From an uncultured Bacteroides sp. (GTDB lineage Bacteria; Bacteroidota; Bacteroidia; Bacteroidales; Bacteroidaceae): a stretch of 64,000 bases of DNA. The position numbers and the translations under genes are program-made. Each line of letters opens with the position of its first letter. The stretch's first letter is position 1. The notes below the pieces were generated by a model that saw only the letters and a program-made list of their open reading frames with translations, had not been told where the DNA came from and searched no databases. This document shows positions 40,061-47,374 of this stretch, piece after piece. The stretch lies in contig CAAEFE010000086.1 of NCBI GenBank assembly GCA_900755095.1, positions 62,001-126,000 on the forward strand, given 5' to 3'.

Positions 40061-40900
40061 ATGGAAAATTTCGTAAGAAATAGTAAGCTGAACATAGAAG
40101 AAGAAATAAAAAGGATTGAGCTTCAGACGGTTGATCCTTTGGATAGAATCAGGCAGATCATTGGTGTCGTACAGGTTTCACTGACCTCGCTGAAAACAAC
40201 TGTTGCCGGATATCAGTTTCGAAGTGCTGAAGAAGAGATTCTTTTCTTTAAAGTCTCGAAACCGCAGATTTCCGGTCTGTTGATGTTTTATGTCCGTTTG
40301 TATCAGATTGAAAAGAATCGTATCGACAAATCTCTGTCATCCCAATGCAGATATCTGAAGATTGAATTGGAGAACCTGCAAAAATCATTTTTGAATAATG
40401 ACTTTTATGAATATTACCGTGCCGGTCGAACAGAGCTTGATAACCGCTATTTTATTCGGGAGAATTATGATATTCTTTCTGATATACATTGTCATCTACT
40501 GGATAGAGATATTTCTTTTACCACCTTGCATGACTCGAGTGTTGCAGAAATTCTGGCGAATAATCGCTTGATAGAATATGTGTCGGAGGAAATAGAGCAG
40601 CTGACAGAGAAACTTCATCTTAAATTCACTTCCATTGTAGACAGTAAACTGTTGCAATGGACGGACAGTAAAGTTGCTTTGGTTGAGTTTATCTACGCCT
40701 TGTATGCAGGTAAATGCTTTAGTAATGGAAATACGAGTTTGAAAGACATTGCTTTTTGTTGCGAAACACTGTTTAATATCGAGATAGGTGATTTTTATCG
40801 TATATTCTTGGAAATCAGGAATAGAAAGAAAAGCAGAACCCAATTTCTGGATAAGTTGAAAGAACAGATTATAAAGATGATGGATGAGCTTGACAGATAA
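40061..40900 (+). CDS. RteC-family protein
   Basis: The 279-residue protein matches RteC over its length, most clearly at the C-terminus: LLQWTDSKVALVEFIYALYAGKCFSNGNTSLKDIAFCCETLFNIEIGDFYRIFLEIRNRKKSRTQFLDKLKE, split here as seen at about 196-270. RteC of CTnDOT is a DNA-binding activator of the excision genes. No rteA/rteB, integrase, excision or mobilisation gene is in this window, so it is an orphan. It could be a leftover from an integrated conjugative element or a domesticated regulator. The gene looks intact. Confidence 0.85.
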   Translation: MENFVRNSKLNIEEEIKRIELQTVDPLDRIRQIIGVVQVSLTSLKTTVAGYQFRSAEEEILFFKVSKPQISGLLMFYVRLYQIEKNRIDKSLSSQCRYLKIELENLQKSFLNNDFYEYYRAGRTELDNRYFIRENYDILSDIHCHLLDRDISFTTLHDSSVAEILANNRLIEYVSEEIEQLTEKLHLKFTSIVDSKLLQWTDSKVALVEFIYALYAGKCFSNGNTSLKDIAFCCETLFNIEIGDFYRIFLEIRNRKKSRTQFLDKLKEQIIKMMDELDR

Positions 40901-42454: not shown

Positions 42455-42599
42455 ACAATCTGTGTTTCTGATACAGATTGTCCTTTCGTTTGCTCTCGGA
42501 TGATTCCTTCCGGGAGTACTCTTTATGTCTTTATAATTTCAATTCTTAACTTGCGTACAAGGGTGCTAAAAGCATCGTGGTGCTTTGTAACGTGTACGC
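42455..42599 (+). promoter_or_regulatory. Structured 5' leader of rsgA
   Basis: The leader has a perfect 9-base hairpin (ACAATCTGT at 42455-42463 with ACAGATTGT at 42473-42481), followed by CCTTTCGTTT. A second stem of the CTCGGA/TCCGGGAG type is near 42495-42520. A third, GCGTACA (42553-42559) with TGTACGC (42593-42599), encloses a GGTGCT/AGCATC hairpin and ends 16 bases before the start codon. Such density suggests control at the RNA level, but no known riboswitch is recognised. Confidence 0.45.
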
Positions 42600-42615
42600 T
42601 GTATACATTAAGATC

Positions 42616-43704
42616 ATGAATAACGAAAATCAAACAATTCACAAATTCGACTTTAATTTAAACTGGTATGGCTGGAATGATAAACTAAGCCAACTAAAAC
42701 AAGAATCACTCTACAGCACTCTTCCTCATGGACGTATATCCATAGTACATCGTACCTGCTACGAGGTCGTTTCCGAAAACGGATTGTTTCAGTGTGAACT
42801 CACGGGAAACATGATGTATGGGAAATCTGATGCTGAATTACCCTGTACGGGTGATTGGGTGCTTTTTCAACCATTTGATGAGAATAAAGGGATTATTGTC
42901 TATATGCTACCTCGTGAGCGGACATTGTATCGCAAGAAAAGTGGTACAGTTGCCGATAAGCAGGCCATTGCTTCTTACGTCGATAAAGCATTTATTGTGC
43001 AGAGTCTTGACGATAATTTCAATGTCCGCAGAGTAGAACGTTTTATGGTTCAGGTATTAGAAGAAAACATCAAGCCTGTATTGGTACTTAATAAATCCGA
43101 TTTAGATTTTGACAGGCAGAGTGTTGAAGAACAAATAAATCATATCTCCAATCAGATACCCGTATTTTTTACGAGCATTCATCAACCCCAAACGATTCTC
43201 CGGTTGCGGGAATCCATATCAGAGGGAGAAACTGTTGTGTTTGTCGGTTCTTCGGGTGTCGGGAAAAGTTCTCTGGTAAATGCACTCTGTGAAAAATCTG
43301 TGTTGCTTACCTCCGATATAAGCCTGTCCACAGGAAAAGGCCGGCATACATCAACCCGTCGGGAAATGGTATTGATGAATGATTCGGGTGTTTTAATCGA
43401 TACTCCGGGTGTGCGTGAATTTGGCTTGGTTATCGACAATCCAGACTCACTGGCCGAAGTACTTGAAATCTCTGACTATGCAGAATCGTGCCGTTTCAAA
43501 GATTGCAAGCATATCAACGAACCGGGTTGTGCTGTTTTAGAAGCAGTCAATAGCGGTGTGTTAGATTATAAAGTTTATGCAAGCTATCTGAAACTTCGCC
43601 GGGAAGCGTGGCACTTTTCAGCTTCCGAACATGAGAAACGTAAAAAGGAGAAGTCCTTTACAAAACTTGTAGAAGAAGTAAAGAATCGTAAGGCAAATCG
43701 CTGA
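42616..43704 (+). CDS. rsgA: Ribosome small-subunit-dependent GTPase A
   Basis: From the ATG at 42616 (MNNENQTIHKFDFNLNWYGWND) the protein has 362 residues. It is the circularly permuted GTPase: an OB-fold region first, then G4 (LVLNKSDLD), G1 (FVGSSGVGKSSLVNAL) and G3 (DTPGVREFG) in that order, and a C-terminal zinc knuckle (CRFKDCKHINEPGC). RsgA helps mature the 30S decoding centre. The Arg/Lys-rich tail is usual. An in-frame TTG-type extension upstream lies in the leader hairpin and is not favoured. Confidence 0.93.
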   Translation: MNNENQTIHKFDFNLNWYGWNDKLSQLKQESLYSTLPHGRISIVHRTCYEVVSENGLFQCELTGNMMYGKSDAELPCTGDWVLFQPFDENKGIIVYMLPRERTLYRKKSGTVADKQAIASYVDKAFIVQSLDDNFNVRRVERFMVQVLEENIKPVLVLNKSDLDFDRQSVEEQINHISNQIPVFFTSIHQPQTILRLRESISEGETVVFVGSSGVGKSSLVNALCEKSVLLTSDISLSTGKGRHTSTRREMVLMNDSGVLIDTPGVREFGLVIDNPDSLAEVLEISDYAESCRFKDCKHINEPGCAVLEAVNSGVLDYKVYASYLKLRREAWHFSASEHEKRKKEKSFTKLVEEVKNRKANR

Positions 43705-43799
43705 TTTCTATTTAAACGATGCAGGTATTGGAATTTATTTTTTTCTTTAAAAGAGCAAAAAAGTTTTAGTTGCGCAAAAAGGCTGCGCACCACTGCATC

Positions 43800-43807
43800 T
43801 ATCTTTG
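43800..43807 (+). promoter_or_regulatory. -7 box before the tRNA-like RNA cluster
   Basis: TATCTTTG matches the -7 consensus; the identical 10-base context (CTATCTTTGTCG) occurs at the rsgA promoter. No TTG is at the ideal distance (a TTG at 43770-43772 is 27 bases upstream). Transcription would begin near 43814, just before the first module. Confidence 0.45.
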
Positions 43808-43822
43808 TCGAAGAAACAAGAA

Positions 43823-43859
43823 AACAGGTCAAGTACGGGTTACTTCCATACATCCTGTT
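43823..43859 (+). ncRNA. First RNA module of the cluster (hairpin with AGGTCAA/TTACTTC core)
   Basis: AACAGG (43823-43828) pairs with CCTGTT (43854-43859). The loop holds the core at 43826-43846: AGGTCAA, then GTACGGG, then TTACTTC. The same core occurs three more times in the next 330 bases. No tRNA-like arms surround this copy. It may be the 5' end of the transcript that also carries the two tRNA-like elements. Confidence 0.5.
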
Positions 43860-43902
43860 AAGATATTGACTCATACGATTATCAGTTTTCCTGTTTCGTA
43901 AA

Positions 43903-44022
43903 GGGGCAGTAGCTCAGTGGGTAGAGCATCATACATAATCTTGAGATTATCCTGATGAAAAAGGTCAATTAAGATTTACTTCTATCCTGTGACGGTCGTC
44001 GGTTCGACTCCGGCCTGCTCCA
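43903..44022 (+). ncRNA. tRNA-like RNA 1: acceptor, D-arm and T-arm with enlarged centre
   Basis: GGGGCAG (43903-43909) pairs with CTGCTCC (44015-44021), followed by A as discriminator. GCTC/GAGC (43912-43915, 43924-43927) makes a normal D-arm with loop AGTGGGTA. GTCGG/CCGGC with loop TTCGACT (43998-44014) is a canonical T-arm. A 70-base centre replaces the anticodon arm and variable loop. It has an ATCA/TGAT stem enclosing ATAATC-TTGA-GATTAT, then the core AGGTCAA-TTAAGAT-TTACTTC (43962-43982). AATCTTGA (43937-43944) can also pair with TTAAGATT (43969-43976). Without a seven-base anticodon loop it is unlikely to work as a decoding tRNA; it looks like a tRNA mimic. Confidence 0.6.
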
Positions 44023-44036
44023 CAAAAAATAAATAT

Positions 44037-44142
44037 AGAGGTAGGACAGCAGCTTCGGGATTATCTGAAATGAGGTCAACCGGGGCTTACTTCTTAACGG
44101 TGGATAACGCTGGTTCGAATCCGGCCTGTTCTACCTCTTTTT
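44037..44142 (+). ncRNA. tRNA-like RNA 2: 13-base closing stem, T-arm and conserved core
   Basis: AGAGGTAGGACAG (44037-44049) pairs with CTGTTCTACCTCT (44126-44138) with one G:T, and TTTTTA follows, so the 3' end may also be a terminator or a processing site. GCTGG/CCGGC with loop TTCGAAT (44109-44125) is a canonical T-arm. The D-arm is not tRNA-like. The core AGGTCAA-CCGGGGC-TTACTTC is at 44073-44093, and CCGGGGCT (44080-44087) pairs fully with AGCTTCGG (44051-44058) using two G:T steps. GATTATC precedes the core, as in the first tRNA-like RNA. Confidence 0.6.
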
Positions 44143-44148
44143 ATCAAC

Positions 44149-44218
44149 TAAGGTCAAGGAAGACTTACTTCAAAACCGCAGGAATGCTCCATTGATTCAC
44201 AGTCTTCCGATTACCTTA
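44149..44218 (+). ncRNA. Leader hairpin with the fourth core, just before the zinc-finger/TerD gene
   Basis: TAAGGT (44149-44154) pairs with ACCTTA (44213-44218), and GGAAGACT (44158-44165) with AGTCTTCC (44201-44208), giving 14 perfect pairs around a CAA/GATT internal loop. The core AGGTCAA-GGAAGAC-TTACTTC is at 44151-44171, so its variable bases are again in a helix, here with a downstream partner. The hairpin ends 17 bases before the start codon, which suggests binding or feedback by the encoded protein. Confidence 0.55.
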
Positions 44219-44235
44219 CTTAAAAAAACAAAGTT

Positions 44236-46482
44236 ATGAATAAAGATTTGTTGAAAGTGTCTATCAGGCAGAATGCAATCTATTTGCCTTTGATAGAAGA
44301 AGAGAAAAAGCAGGAAGAGTTGACTTCGACTACCATTGCATTGGTAGCCCAACTCCGTAAAGTAGGATATAGCTTGTCCGAAGAACTGCTGCATGCCATT
44401 AATCAGTTATATCCGACTCAACAGATGATGATTCTTCAGGTGATGAAAGAAGCATTGGGCGTGACGCTAAACTGGTCTCCATTGGTGAAAGGGTGGGATG
44501 TACCTACCGGAGAAACGCGCTTGGATCATCTGGTTACATGGATCGCTAACCTGTTTAATAGCCAGAAAGGCGTTAAACTACCTTGCGGACACGTGATCCC
44601 TGATAATACATTCCCTATGGAACGATACAATGGTTGTCCGTTCTGCGGAACCCCGTTCCAAACGGCTACTATGGAATATTTCGGACAGGGAAGTAAACTG
44701 AAAGTGCTGGAACTTTGGCAGGACAAGGAGCTGAATGCTTTTTTCTGTGACTTGCTTGAATCGCGTACAGCTCTTGATACCACACAAGCGGATAGCTTGA
44801 AAATAATGCTTGGCGAACTTCCGTTACCGGCAGTCGGAATCAAAATGAAGGAGACATTGATGTTGGTGATAGATACATTGGTGGAACAGGATAGAGCGCA
44901 GGAAGCGCAAATCTATTTCTCTACTCCGAATGATATATTGCGTTATCTGTGGTATAAGAAAACCGGATTCCTGCAAATCATAGAGCCTAAGACTATTATC
45001 CGTAAAACAGGTAGAAACAACACACATATATGTGGAGTTTTGGATAAAAGTCGTTCGGCAGCTCAAGCGAAGCGTGAGGAGTTGAAGTTGAAATATACGC
45101 GTCGTGAATGTAAAATGGTAGCTCTTTGGTTGAACAACCTGACAATGGCTCCGGAGAAGGCTTGCGAAATCATGCATCCGAAAAGAGAGATGTGGGTACG
45201 TATGATACGTGCGTTGCGTCTGGCGGAATATGCCCGTAAGCCGGAATTCGGAAATTTGAAGGAATTGATGGATATATTCTACCGCGAGGCATATACCGTT
45301 TGGCAGGGAGAAGTGGAGCGCAACCGTTTGAAGGCGGATGCGGAACAGACATTTGCTTTGTTAAAGCAGCGACCGGGTATGTTTGCACGTTCTTTATTTG
45401 CGAATATGCTTTGGTTCGGAGCGGAAGAGACGTTGGCTGCATTTAAAGAAGTGGTTCATTTGTTGCCGGCACGTTTGGTAGTTACTTTGGGTATGTATGC
45501 GGAGAGCTACTTTGAACCGGGACGTAAGAGAATGGTGAAACCTTTAGGGGGGAATGCTCTTTTGATAGAACCACATTATTTGGTGGGTCTGTATATGGAG
45601 GATCAGCTAAAAGCGATGGTGAAGGATGTACAGGATTTGTGTAAGGAAGTCGTAGCTGCCCGTTTCGCCAGTGCAACTGTCGAAAGTGAAAACAAAAGTA
45701 TGTATATTGACCCTATGTTGTTCCATATTCCGTTGGCTATCGGCGATCGTAGCGAAACAATTCAGGATACTTCCTGTGCTTTGCAGGGAACGCGTTTCCC
45801 GGTAAAGGGGGATAAAGTGCGATTGTTTATGCAGTGGGGAAAAGGGCTTCCGGCACAGCATCTTGACATGGACTTGAGTTGTCATATCACTTTGCCTTCC
45901 ACAACAGAAGTTTGTTCCTTCTTCAACTTGCAAGCTATTGGCGCTAAACATAGCGGGGATATCCGAAGTATTCCTAATAAGAAAGGTACTGCTGAATATA
46001 TCGAGCTGGATTTGAATGAACTGAACCGTGTAGGTGCGGAATATGTCGCTTTCACTTGCAATGCATATAGCAACGGGACTATCTCTCCTAATCTGGTGGT
46101 AGGTTGGATGAACTCTGCCTATCCAATGAAGATATCGGAAAGAACAGGAGTAGCTTACGATCCTTCTTGCGTACAACATCAGGTACGTATTTCCCAAAGT
46201 TTGCAGAAAGGGCTTGTTTTCGGAGTTCTGAAAGTGAAAGAACGGGAAATCGTTTGGCTGGAAATACCTTTTGGTGGACAGACGATTCTTTCTTTGGATA
46301 CACAGACCATTGAAAAGTATCTGGATAAGCTGGAAGCGAAAACAACTGTTGGTGAACTGTTAGCTGTCAAAGCACAGGCACAGGGATTGAAGTTAGTTGA
46401 TATTCCGGAAGCGGACGAGATATATACTCGTGAATGGGCATTGAATACTGCCGCTGTGACTAAATTACTGTTGGGTGATTAA
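44236..46482 (+). CDS. Zinc-finger (RING-half) protein with helical core and TerD-like C-terminus
   Basis: The 748-residue protein has no signal or membrane segment. A CxH...CxxC zinc site (Cys117, His119, Cys134, Cys137 in LPCGHVIP and YNGCPFCGTPF) looks like the second half of a RING finger. Residues 150-470 are helical and Lys/Arg-rich, perhaps HEAT-like, with KLKYTRRECKMVALWLNNL and KREMWVRMIRALRLAEYARKPEF. Residues about 520-650 look TerD-like (AKHSGDIRSIPNKKGTAEYIELDLNEL). I recall a family named MXAN_6230/SCO0854 RING-domain proteins that this may belong to; that is memory only. It is directly downstream of the tRNA-like RNA cluster, so an RNA-binding role is a fair guess. No TROVE (Ro60) or RtcB gene is nearby. 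Confidence 0.7.
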   Translation: MNKDLLKVSIRQNAIYLPLIEEEKKQEELTSTTIALVAQLRKVGYSLSEELLHAINQLYPTQQMMILQVMKEALGVTLNWSPLVKGWDVPTGETRLDHLVTWIANLFNSQKGVKLPCGHVIPDNTFPMERYNGCPFCGTPFQTATMEYFGQGSKLKVLELWQDKELNAFFCDLLESRTALDTTQADSLKIMLGELPLPAVGIKMKETLMLVIDTLVEQDRAQEAQIYFSTPNDILRYLWYKKTGFLQIIEPKTIIRKTGRNNTHICGVLDKSRSAAQAKREELKLKYTRRECKMVALWLNNLTMAPEKACEIMHPKREMWVRMIRALRLAEYARKPEFGNLKELMDIFYREAYTVWQGEVERNRLKADAEQTFALLKQRPGMFARSLFANMLWFGAEETLAAFKEVVHLLPARLVVTLGMYAESYFEPGRKRMVKPLGGNALLIEPHYLVGLYMEDQLKAMVKDVQDLCKEVVAARFASATVESENKSMYIDPMLFHIPLAIGDRSETIQDTSCALQGTRFPVKGDKVRLFMQWGKGLPAQHLDMDLSCHITLPSTTEVCSFFNLQAIGAKHSGDIRSIPNKKGTAEYIELDLNELNRVGAEYVAFTCNAYSNGTISPNLVVGWMNSAYPMKISERTGVAYDPSCVQHQVRISQSLQKGLVFGVLKVKEREIVWLEIPFGGQTILSLDTQTIEKYLDKLEAKTTVGELLAVKAQAQGLKLVDIPEADEIYTREWALNTAAVTKLLLGD

Positions 46483-46559: not shown

Positions 46560-46566
46560 GATTAAT

Positions 46567-46652
46567 CGTCTGACTATAGTGTACTTTTCGTCTGACTGTA
46601 GTTTAATTTTCGTCTAACTATAGTCAGACGAAAGAGAAACTATAGTCAGACG
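46567..46652. repeat. CGTCTGACTATAG repeat array, 22-base period, with inverted copies
   Basis: Direct copies start at 46567 (CGTCTGACTATAG), 46589 (CGTCTGACTGTAG) and 46611 (CGTCTAACTATAG). Inverted copies CTATAGTCAGACG start at 46618 and 46640. Both sets have an exact 22-base period, about two helical turns. The array lies in the 5' leader of the HU-like gene and could be a protein-binding array or a strong RNA hairpin. Confidence 0.85.
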
Positions 46653-46753
46653 ATTAATTTTATGTATAGTTAGGACTAACTTCTCGTATTGAAGAGATTA
46701 AATGTTAGTCAAAAGGAGTATAAATACATAAACCTAATAAAACGAAGATACTT

Positions 46754-47374
46754 ATGAGTGCAAAGTATGATTTATATGAGACACCGGACGTTCAGAATAC
46801 AGGAGAACAACAACCGCTTCATGCCCGCATTGTCCCAAGCGGAACCTACTCGAAAAAAGAGTTTCTGGAACGTGTGTCCCACTCTTCCCAAACATTTAAT
46901 TATAATGTGATAGATGCAGTGGTAGGAATTGTGATCGATGAACTTGCCGAAGCTTTATCAGAAGGATATGTTGTAGAACTTGGCGAACTCGGGCATTTTA
47001 GCATCTCTTTGAAATGTACGCATAAAGTAATGACTAAACGTGAGATTCGTGCCGAATCAATCTGTTTTGATAACGTGCATTTGCGCACTTCCAAAGGGTT
47101 CAAAAGGAAGATTAAGCGTGAAATAGAGTTGGAACGTGTGGACAAATCCAAACACTCTTCTCAAAAAGTGGAATTTTCTATGGAGCAACGCCAACAGCTT
47201 TTACAGGAATTTCTAAAGAAAAATGGTGGTATTACCCGATTGGAATATAGTAGCCTGACCGGACTTTCCCGGCTGAAAGCAATAGATGATTTGAATATTT
47301 TCATTGAGAAAGGGATTCTTCGTAAACGTGGAGCTGGAAGAACCGTGTTTTATGTCTGGCAACATGAAGAATGA
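46754..47374 (+). CDS. HU-like DNA-binding protein with C-terminal winged helix
   Basis: The 206-residue protein has a Bacteroidetes HU-like domain at about 20-125 (HARIVPSGTYSKKEFLERVS, VVELGELGHFSISLKC, HLRTSKGFKRKIKREIELERV). The C-terminal 60 residues (LLQEFLKKNGGITRLEYSSLTGLSRLKAIDDLNIFIEKGILRKRGAGRTVFYVW) form a clear winged helix. HU-like proteins bend DNA; the second domain should give sequence specificity. It is preceded by the 22-base-period array, which it may bind. Confidence 0.85.
   Translation: MSAKYDLYETPDVQNTGEQQPLHARIVPSGTYSKKEFLERVSHSSQTFNYNVIDAVVGIVIDELAEALSEGYVVELGELGHFSISLKCTHKVMTKREIRAESICFDNVHLRTSKGFKRKIKREIELERVDKSKHSSQKVEFSMEQRQQLLQEFLKKNGGITRLEYSSLTGLSRLKAIDDLNIFIEKGILRKRGAGRTVFYVWQHEE

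Follow-up and report, generated by a model that had tools for sequence, protein, structure and literature searches.

Among the literature matches listed, those nearest to the locus described here are a paper on the Salmonella RNA-repair operon (PMC7790460) and a review of jumbo phages (PMC7824862). In excerpts of the review TROVE is a ribonucleoprotein (RNP) platform that serves RNA repair and has a tRNA-like partner. Excerpts of the former suggest that Rsr and its Y RNA might act in tRNA decay, or that the Y RNA YrlA might inhibit a nuclease. Here we report on a stretch of 64,000 nucleotides from an uncultured Bacteroides sp. (contig CAAEFE010000086.1; the window, meaning this whole stretch), in which four small RNA elements precede a gene for a 748-residue protein (44236..46482, + strand). 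The pairing of this RNA family with this protein gene is well supported by sequence, and since the RNA lies beside one and the same gene in distant bacteria and in large phages, sometimes near RNA-repair genes, the two are probably one undescribed RNA-protein machine that copes with RNA damage. The literature matches listed hold no description of the RNA family or of an RNA-partnered protein, an earlier mention of the gene neighbourhood being possible, and a search under the gene names MXAN_6230 and SCO0854 found nothing.

The four RNAs, within 43.8-44.23 kb, share a 20-base signature, GGTCAA-N8-TACTTC, beginning at 43827, 43963, 44074 and 44152. The eight free bases (X8) pair with a second segment, X8', which is followed by GATTAYC (GATTATC or GATTACC), forming 7, 8, 8 and 8 of 8 pairs in the successive cores. 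X8' lies downstream in the first and fourth, giving hairpins whose loop begins with TACTTC: hairpin 1 (43819..43891, + strand; GGTCAA 43827-43832, X8 43833-43840, TACTTC 43841-43846, X8' 43869-43876, GATTATC 43877-43883) and hairpin 4 (44144..44223, + strand; GGTCAA 44152-44157, X8 44158-44165, TACTTC 44166-44171, X8' 44201-44208, GATTACC 44209-44215). In the second and third cores X8' lies upstream, a circular permutation that points the TACTTC end toward a tRNA-like body. Thus tRNA-like RNA 1 (43903..44022, + strand) has an acceptor stem of 7 bp (GGGGCAG/CTGCTCC), a D arm and a T arm, and where a tRNA gene is expected to have an intact anticodon arm it carries the permuted core (X8' 43937-43944, GATTATC, a loop, GGTCAA 43963-43968, X8 43969-43976, TACTTC 43977-43982). 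tRNA-like RNA 2 (44037..44138, + strand) has an extended stem (44037-44049 with 44126-44138) and a T arm with the loop TTCGAAT, is devoid of a D arm and holds its core at 44051-44093 (X8' 44051-44058, GATTATC, GGTCAA 44074-44079, X8 44080-44087, TACTTC 44088-44093). Read from the letters, the core is a permutable element common to all four. An earlier, sequence-only reading of the window had seen the four cores upstream of the 748-residue open reading frame, as well as the two tRNA-likes with acceptor-like stem and T arm and without anticodon arm; it overlooked the D arm of tRNA-like RNA 1.

Against the Rfam tRNA model (RF00005, cut-off 29) tRNA-like RNA 1 scored 48.9 bits, and tRNA-like RNA 2 remained under the cut-off at 19.2 bits. 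RF00005 was the sole family to reach its gathering cut-off in the Rfam scan of the window; the Y RNA model, which Rfam contains, had no match, and tRNA was again the sole match in 11 more loci (L110-L120), eight of which, all outside Bacteroidota, carry hairpins with no tRNA match in that scan. A tmRNA identity for the window RNAs was rejected (29.2 bits against a cut-off of 47, read as the tRNA half only). Hairpins 1 and 4 scored 57.0 bits (E 7e-11) and 61.2 bits (E 6.1e-12) with a hairpin covariance model, R1, in whose training set both are included.

The core is conserved well beyond the window. In 148 cores read within at most 1200 nt upstream of 80 homologs and of the window gene, the X8 partner was fully paired (8/8) in 98 and formed 7 pairs in 37, whereas random dealing of the X8 sequences reached 8 pairs in 5.7% and 7 pairs in 15.5%. 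In an alignment of 51 hairpin copies 82.2% of cells were paired, with a covariation of 0.644 compared to 0.200 for shuffled and at most 0.217 for slid alignments; as these 51 of 95 copies were selected for at least 7 of 8 X8 pairs, the inner helix is favoured in this score, and the outer stem was not selected for pairing. The tRNA-like alignment, 30 of 41 permuted copies located by maximising acceptor and D pairing, had 97.9% of cells paired and a covariation of 0.616 compared to 0.260 shuffled, with changes on both sides at 21 of 27 pairs, in acceptor, D, T and core helices alike. By our reading of the listing a full tRNA scaffold surrounds 36 of the 41 permuted copies; five of the 41 belong to a second Bacteroides type, and their computed acceptor was read as spurious. 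A C directly follows the discriminator base in all 41. The alanine identity pair G3:U70, considered as a tmRNA-like charging signal, was found in only 13 of the 41 and was dismissed as not conserved.

These data bear on the simplest objection, that the RNAs are decayed or chance tRNA-like sequences. ARAGORN called zero tRNAs in the window and tRNA-like RNA 2 falls under the tRNA cut-off, both in keeping with decay, yet the conservation and covariation extend across the phylum, and in the nearest genome compared (G001) about 24 bases of the D-arm region, and nothing more, resemble other tRNA-like places. The insert kept throughout the phylum with covariation, together with this limited resemblance, speaks against decayed ordinary tRNA genes, an outcome that would have told against the sequence-only reading, and decay or chance likeness has a negligible probability. 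Copy numbers range from one to six per locus. We also observed that the array is partly duplicated at two loci (L008 upstream of 1406 and L012 upstream of 3707), with near-identical cores in two blocks, and that at four (L010 4097-4333, L011 5591-5823, L006 and L008) the RNAs are nested, a second core hairpin with its own T-arm-like loop lying inside the permuted core of a tRNA-like.

R1 was trained on Bacteroidota only, with sequences drawn from 34 of the 80 loci. At E≤0.001 it matched upstream of the gene at 76 of the 80, including 42 of the 46 loci outside training, and had no match at L043, L045, L053 and L055; all 149 listed matches were on the strand of the gene in a search of both strands of 1.05 Mb. 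Among 296 genomes of the phylum R1 matched eight, and a protein profile matched the identical eight, which are not independent because they are confined to two genera. A 12-base pattern is present in 91 of the 296 genomes, and clusters of at least three are, by our reading of the listing, confined to the eight that carry the protein; the scattered matches elsewhere we take as chance.

The pair is not confined to Bacteroidota. A tblastn search of plasmid and phage records found relatives of the protein in Variovorax, Streptomyces, Embleya, Kitasatospora, Deinococcus, Niallia, Vibrio and Mycolicibacterium, in the Rhodococcus phage Weasels2, in an uncultured 485-kb phage and in three further phage records. 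We analysed 19 of 34 such non-Bacteroidota records, the remaining 15 being five of Streptomyces, three of Variovorax, two of Vibrio, one of Mycolicibacterium and four of phages. Here the RNA is a variant hairpin, stem-GGCU..-X-UUCCUUC-loop-X'-..UUUCC-stem, which lies on the same strand as the gene and within 800 nt of it. A descriptor of this hairpin gave 25 matches in 30.4 kb of flanks compared to 6 in 450 kb elsewhere, was matched at 16 of the 19 loci, and on shuffled sequence gave a mean of 0.28 matches; the 12 matches of a reversed motif are invalid as a control, since its CTTC[AC]T shares letters with the genuine motif (GCTTCCTTC). For a second covariance model, R2, we took 15 hairpins from ten of these loci (those of the Streptomyces group, Deinococcus and Variovorax); it had no matches in 25 Bacteroidota sources. 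With the ten loci used for R2 and weak matches included (Mycolicibacterium, E 0.034; Niallia, E 0.041), the RNA stands beside the gene at all 19 loci; the one exception to R2 is L114, phage Weasels2, whose hairpins were found by R1 only (E 1.6e-6, 0.0034 and 0.031). The sequence-only reading hinged on the RNA being present beside most homologs, and most of those examined do have it, in Bacteroidota as well as outside. We noticed in passing that the loops of the non-Bacteroidota hairpins, UUCCUUCUAA, resemble the anti-Shine-Dalgarno tail of 16S rRNA, a possible mimicry.

A test set outside all model building was provided by 32 IMG/VR contigs that encode the protein, 12 of them longer than 200 kb. 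R2 at E≤0.05 matched 21 of the 32, with all matches on the gene's strand at a distance of no more than 900 nt, and R2 or the descriptor matched 26. Three pairs of contigs look duplicated, with identical match places (L190/L191, L195/L196 and L207/L208), and upon removal of one of each R2 matched 18 of 29 loci. The descriptor gave 36 matches in 51.2 kb of viral flanks and 7 in 352 kb elsewhere, a rate at which about one flank match is expected by chance. Two hairpins of L193 are matched by both R1 and R2, linking the two RNA types. A tRNA-like domain, a property of the Bacteroidota copies and also of L112 and L113, has a counterpart in phage loci, where at eight places a tRNA-like T arm comes after the core or inside it; on sequence this suggests tRNA-mimic versions there too. 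Cores whose loop contains a T arm, or is directly followed by one, were seen at L186 4681-4790, L203 ~880 and ~1060, L204 100-316, L216 ~900, L185 ~3940 and L114 ~6618.

The position of the RNAs is informative as to whether they act in cis. Hairpins in the leader of the mRNA could be sites for autocontrol by the protein, or by tRNA or a ligand, with the tRNA-like parts serving processing or sensing in cis, and the RNAs do lie upstream and on the strand of the gene in Bacteroidota, Deinococcus, most Streptomyces-group and most viral loci. However, the gene comes first and the hairpins follow it in Variovorax, Niallia, Vibrio, Weasels2, the huge phage L130, Streptomyces BHT-5-2 and the viral loci L185 and L195; a leader that includes a complete tRNA body, with sites for RNase P and RNase Z, should lead to cleavage of the message, and one to six copies with permuted forms suit trans-acting RNAs better. 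We therefore consider a leader function rather unlikely. It is also conceivable that the tRNA-likes protect against anticodon nucleases, either as substrates to be sacrificed or by competitive inhibition, and that the protein is merely co-regulated. A tRNA body lacking a normal anticodon arm would fit such a decoy, as would the tRNA genes found within the 4-7 kb retained around the gene at 18 of the 32 viral loci, and a like idea has been voiced for YrlA in excerpts of PMC7790460, but it is the plain hairpins, lacking any tRNA part, that are more widely distributed and go along with the protein, and RNA and protein occur in identical genomes, which makes a decoy of RNA alone distinctly improbable.

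The protein is, judged by sequence comparison, a distant relative of the MXAN_6230/SCO0854 RING family (NF041916; 136.5 bits, E 9.5e-40) and by the rule of the curated cut-off of 600 not a member. Its half-RING zinc site (residues 114-141, 44575..44658, + strand; C117, H119, C134 and C137) was correctly recognised in the sequence-only reading: it scores 25.7 bits against Prok-RING_4, slightly under the cut-off of 27, of 52 aligned family members 36 match Prok-RING_4 at E≤0.01, and the zinc-site residues are conserved in Bacteroidota members. The literature matches listed for Prok-RING_4 are, in their excerpts, papers on eukaryotes. The C-terminal domain (residues 524-691, 45805..46308, + strand; invariant D544, D546, S573-G574-D575 and E587) is TerD by fold, with no vWA domain, bearing out the TerD-like domain that had been proposed even though Pfam TerD matches none of the 52 family members at E≤0.01. 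Calcium binding appears in the title of structure 2kxt.

Between these lies a core (residues 152-486, 44689..45693, + strand) that had been described as basic and helical; helical it is, and with 50 K/R to 44 D/E it is not strongly basic. In VIA-align comparisons Ro60 gave the best structural alignments, being in the top three among the chains compared (Z 7.7-8.1, suggestive only). A PDB sequence search with this core gave nothing at E≤10, and neither of the two models had a Foldseek match at E≤0.001. A TROVE identity by sequence was rejected on profile comparisons: TROVE PF05731 matched 0 of 52 family members at E≤0.01, and hhalign of alignments A6, A2 and A1 with a set of 120 TROVE proteins, most of them from Flavobacterium, gave a probability of 0.1% (template Neff 2.5). 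Nor was a TROVE match found in G001, in agreement with the absence of a TROVE protein noted from the window. The structural comparison with Ro60 proposed at that stage thus placed Ro60 near the top at a Z that is no more than suggestive, and on these models the helical core may or may not be kin to Ro60.

The composition of the protein bears on yet another explanation, a pair resembling type III toxin-antitoxin systems in which the repeated RNA inhibits a toxin protein. The likeness is to ToxIN, where tandem structured RNA repeats adjoin one protein gene. Here, however, the domains recognised are a zinc site and a TerD fold, the RNAs occur on either side of the gene, and PADLOC found nothing at E≤1; a ToxN-like endoribonuclease had no match in Pfam, PADLOC or fold searches, lists that cannot exclude a nuclease fold. 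We hold this explanation to be very improbable.

What the pair may do is suggested by its neighbours, surveyed at 102 loci of which many have short flanks. Clusters of RtcB and of WYL proteins were defined by blastp linkage, with one Bacteroidota member of each tested against Pfam. An RtcB cluster occurs at eight Bacteroidota loci, where its distance to the gene is between 75 and 1982 nt, and in phage Weasels2, 3.1 kb from the gene, Pfam RtcB being confirmed for the L012 and Weasels2 members; in the genomes G246 and G171 RtcB lies 0.6-0.8 kb from the gene. In Variovorax, the sole such locus among the annotated ones, RtcR is encoded upstream on the other strand, and three small ORFs separate it from the gene; an RNA ligase is encoded about 3 kb downstream of the gene in Vibrio and an RNB ribonuclease about 1 kb downstream in Streptomyces (L118). 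RtcB, RtcR and RNA ligase, none of them a neighbour at more than a minority of loci, lend support to the idea of RNA quality control put forward in the sequence-only reading. At genome level RtcB is present in all eight module-positive genomes compared to 5 of 12 module-negative ones that we picked from the same two genera, and TROVE in 1 of 8 and 3 of 12, respectively. In the three module-negative genomes (G223, G058 and G203; loci L181, L180 and L183) TROVE lies at most 3.4 kb from RtcB, as if the TROVE RNP and the RING-TerD module were alternatives beside RtcB.

A WYL-regulator cluster is found at 19 of the 102 loci, in 18 of them upstream and on the opposite strand. The dyad CGCA-N8-GCG(C/T)A is present at most 1300 nt upstream of the gene, before the array, at 35 of 84 Bacteroidota loci; elsewhere it has 16 matches in 1.09 Mb, where a single site may count up to three times. 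The copy in the window, TGCGCA-N7-TGCGCA (43771..43789, + strand), is conserved and a possible operator, and a WYL-type regulator is a possible candidate to bind it. Directly downstream is a putative promoter box, TATCTTTG (43800..43807, + strand), assigned by its letters to the Bacteroidota -7 consensus, TAnnTTTG; judged by eye, several related loci have similar boxes after the dyad and before the first hairpin. The window gene itself adjoins neither RtcB nor WYL. It is flanked by genes for an HU-HIG DNA-binding protein (46754-47374), an RsgA GTPase (42577-43704) and RteC (40061-40900), which do not belong to the most recurrent neighbour clusters, and short CGTCTGACTATAG-like repeats in both orientations occur in 46560-46660, between the protein gene and the HU-HIG gene. 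Near the module VWA-domain genes were observed in Deinococcus and on Streptomyces plasmids (L115 8660-12041, L111, L118 and L121), accompanied by a MoxR or AAA ATPase in L115 and L121, and TerB is annotated near one locus, L127, among the annotated loci.

Based on these data we lean toward a two-part RNP, core RNAs with a RING-TerD partner, that would handle broken tRNAs beside RtcB. A regulated transcript would carry several small RNAs with a common core for recognition by protein. This core is a helix of 8 bp, free in sequence, between two fixed ends: an internal loop (GGUCAA / RAUUAYC) and, opposite it, a loop that reads UACUUC in Bacteroidota and UUCCUUC outside. As only the ends of this helix are fixed, one protein presumably reads both at a set distance, and we infer that all copies bind it. 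The RING-TerD protein would be that partner, the RNA being most likely held on the Ro60-like helical core. In Bacteroidota some cores appear to have been grafted, circularly permuted, onto a tRNA body in the position of the anticodon arm; such copies should be released by RNase P and RNase Z, exposing the tRNA elbow and the acceptor end. Together with RtcB the particle might handle broken tRNAs, its simplest role being that of a seat or gate in which the mimic fills the tRNA seat until damaged tRNA displaces it, or else signals the presence of such tRNA, while the TerD domain relays the state of the particle. A role in tRNA damage is our best inference. Ligand or nucleotide sensing, the usual suggestion for TerD in excerpts of PMC7824862 and PMC7159879, is a candidate reason for the attached TerD domain. 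Large phages probably carry the module against tRNA-cleaving defences of the host.

Seen overall, the RNP interpretation made from the letters of the window is supported. A protein family known here by database name only (RING-TerD, MXAN_6230/SCO0854-like) gains a dedicated RNA family, and both are placed in an RNA-repair setting otherwise occupied by Ro60 and Y RNAs. A circularly permuted RNA element at the anticodon position of a tRNA body is a striking case of RNA modularity. The module opens direct tests of TerD function in the response to RNA damage and of why large phages carry the pair near tRNA genes, and the covariance models are a ready tool to search for the system in any genome. 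It is an evenly balanced thought that bacteria and jumbo phages possess a second, TROVE-independent class of RNA-repair RNP. Its RING/helical/TerD protein would have its own, widely conserved RNA family, with a core that can be closed at either end and moved into a tRNA scaffold so as to turn tRNAs into sensors or seats for damaged tRNA, and it could substitute for Ro60 beside RtcB.

Compared to known systems, the module resembles RtcB/RtcA/RtcR operons in having RtcR near the Variovorax gene and RtcB as a neighbour in several Bacteroidota, whereas its own protein matches no known ligase or cyclase family. It shares homology with the MXAN_6230/SCO0854 proteins and yet the window protein scores far under their cut-off, and it shares the fold and conserved acidic residues of TerD from the Ter (tellurite and stress) systems, with the difference that here TerD is embedded in a multi-domain, RNA-associated protein. 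The closest likeness is to Ro60/Rsr and Y RNA (YrlA; rsr-yrlBA-rtcBA): in both, a small RNA with a tRNA-like domain neighbours a gene whose protein has a helical core, some module loci adjoin RtcB or lie near RtcR, and Ro60 is the chain to which the module's helical core aligns best among those compared, an alignment that is suggestive only. Unlike Y RNA, the module RNA has a core with no Rfam family match in the stretches searched, permuted copies that replace the anticodon arm, and up to six copies per locus. Unlike Ro60/Rsr, the protein has no TROVE match, and a TerD fold follows the helical core where Ro60 has vWA; the RING/helical/TerD protein may be a structural cousin of Ro60 with TerD in place of vWA.

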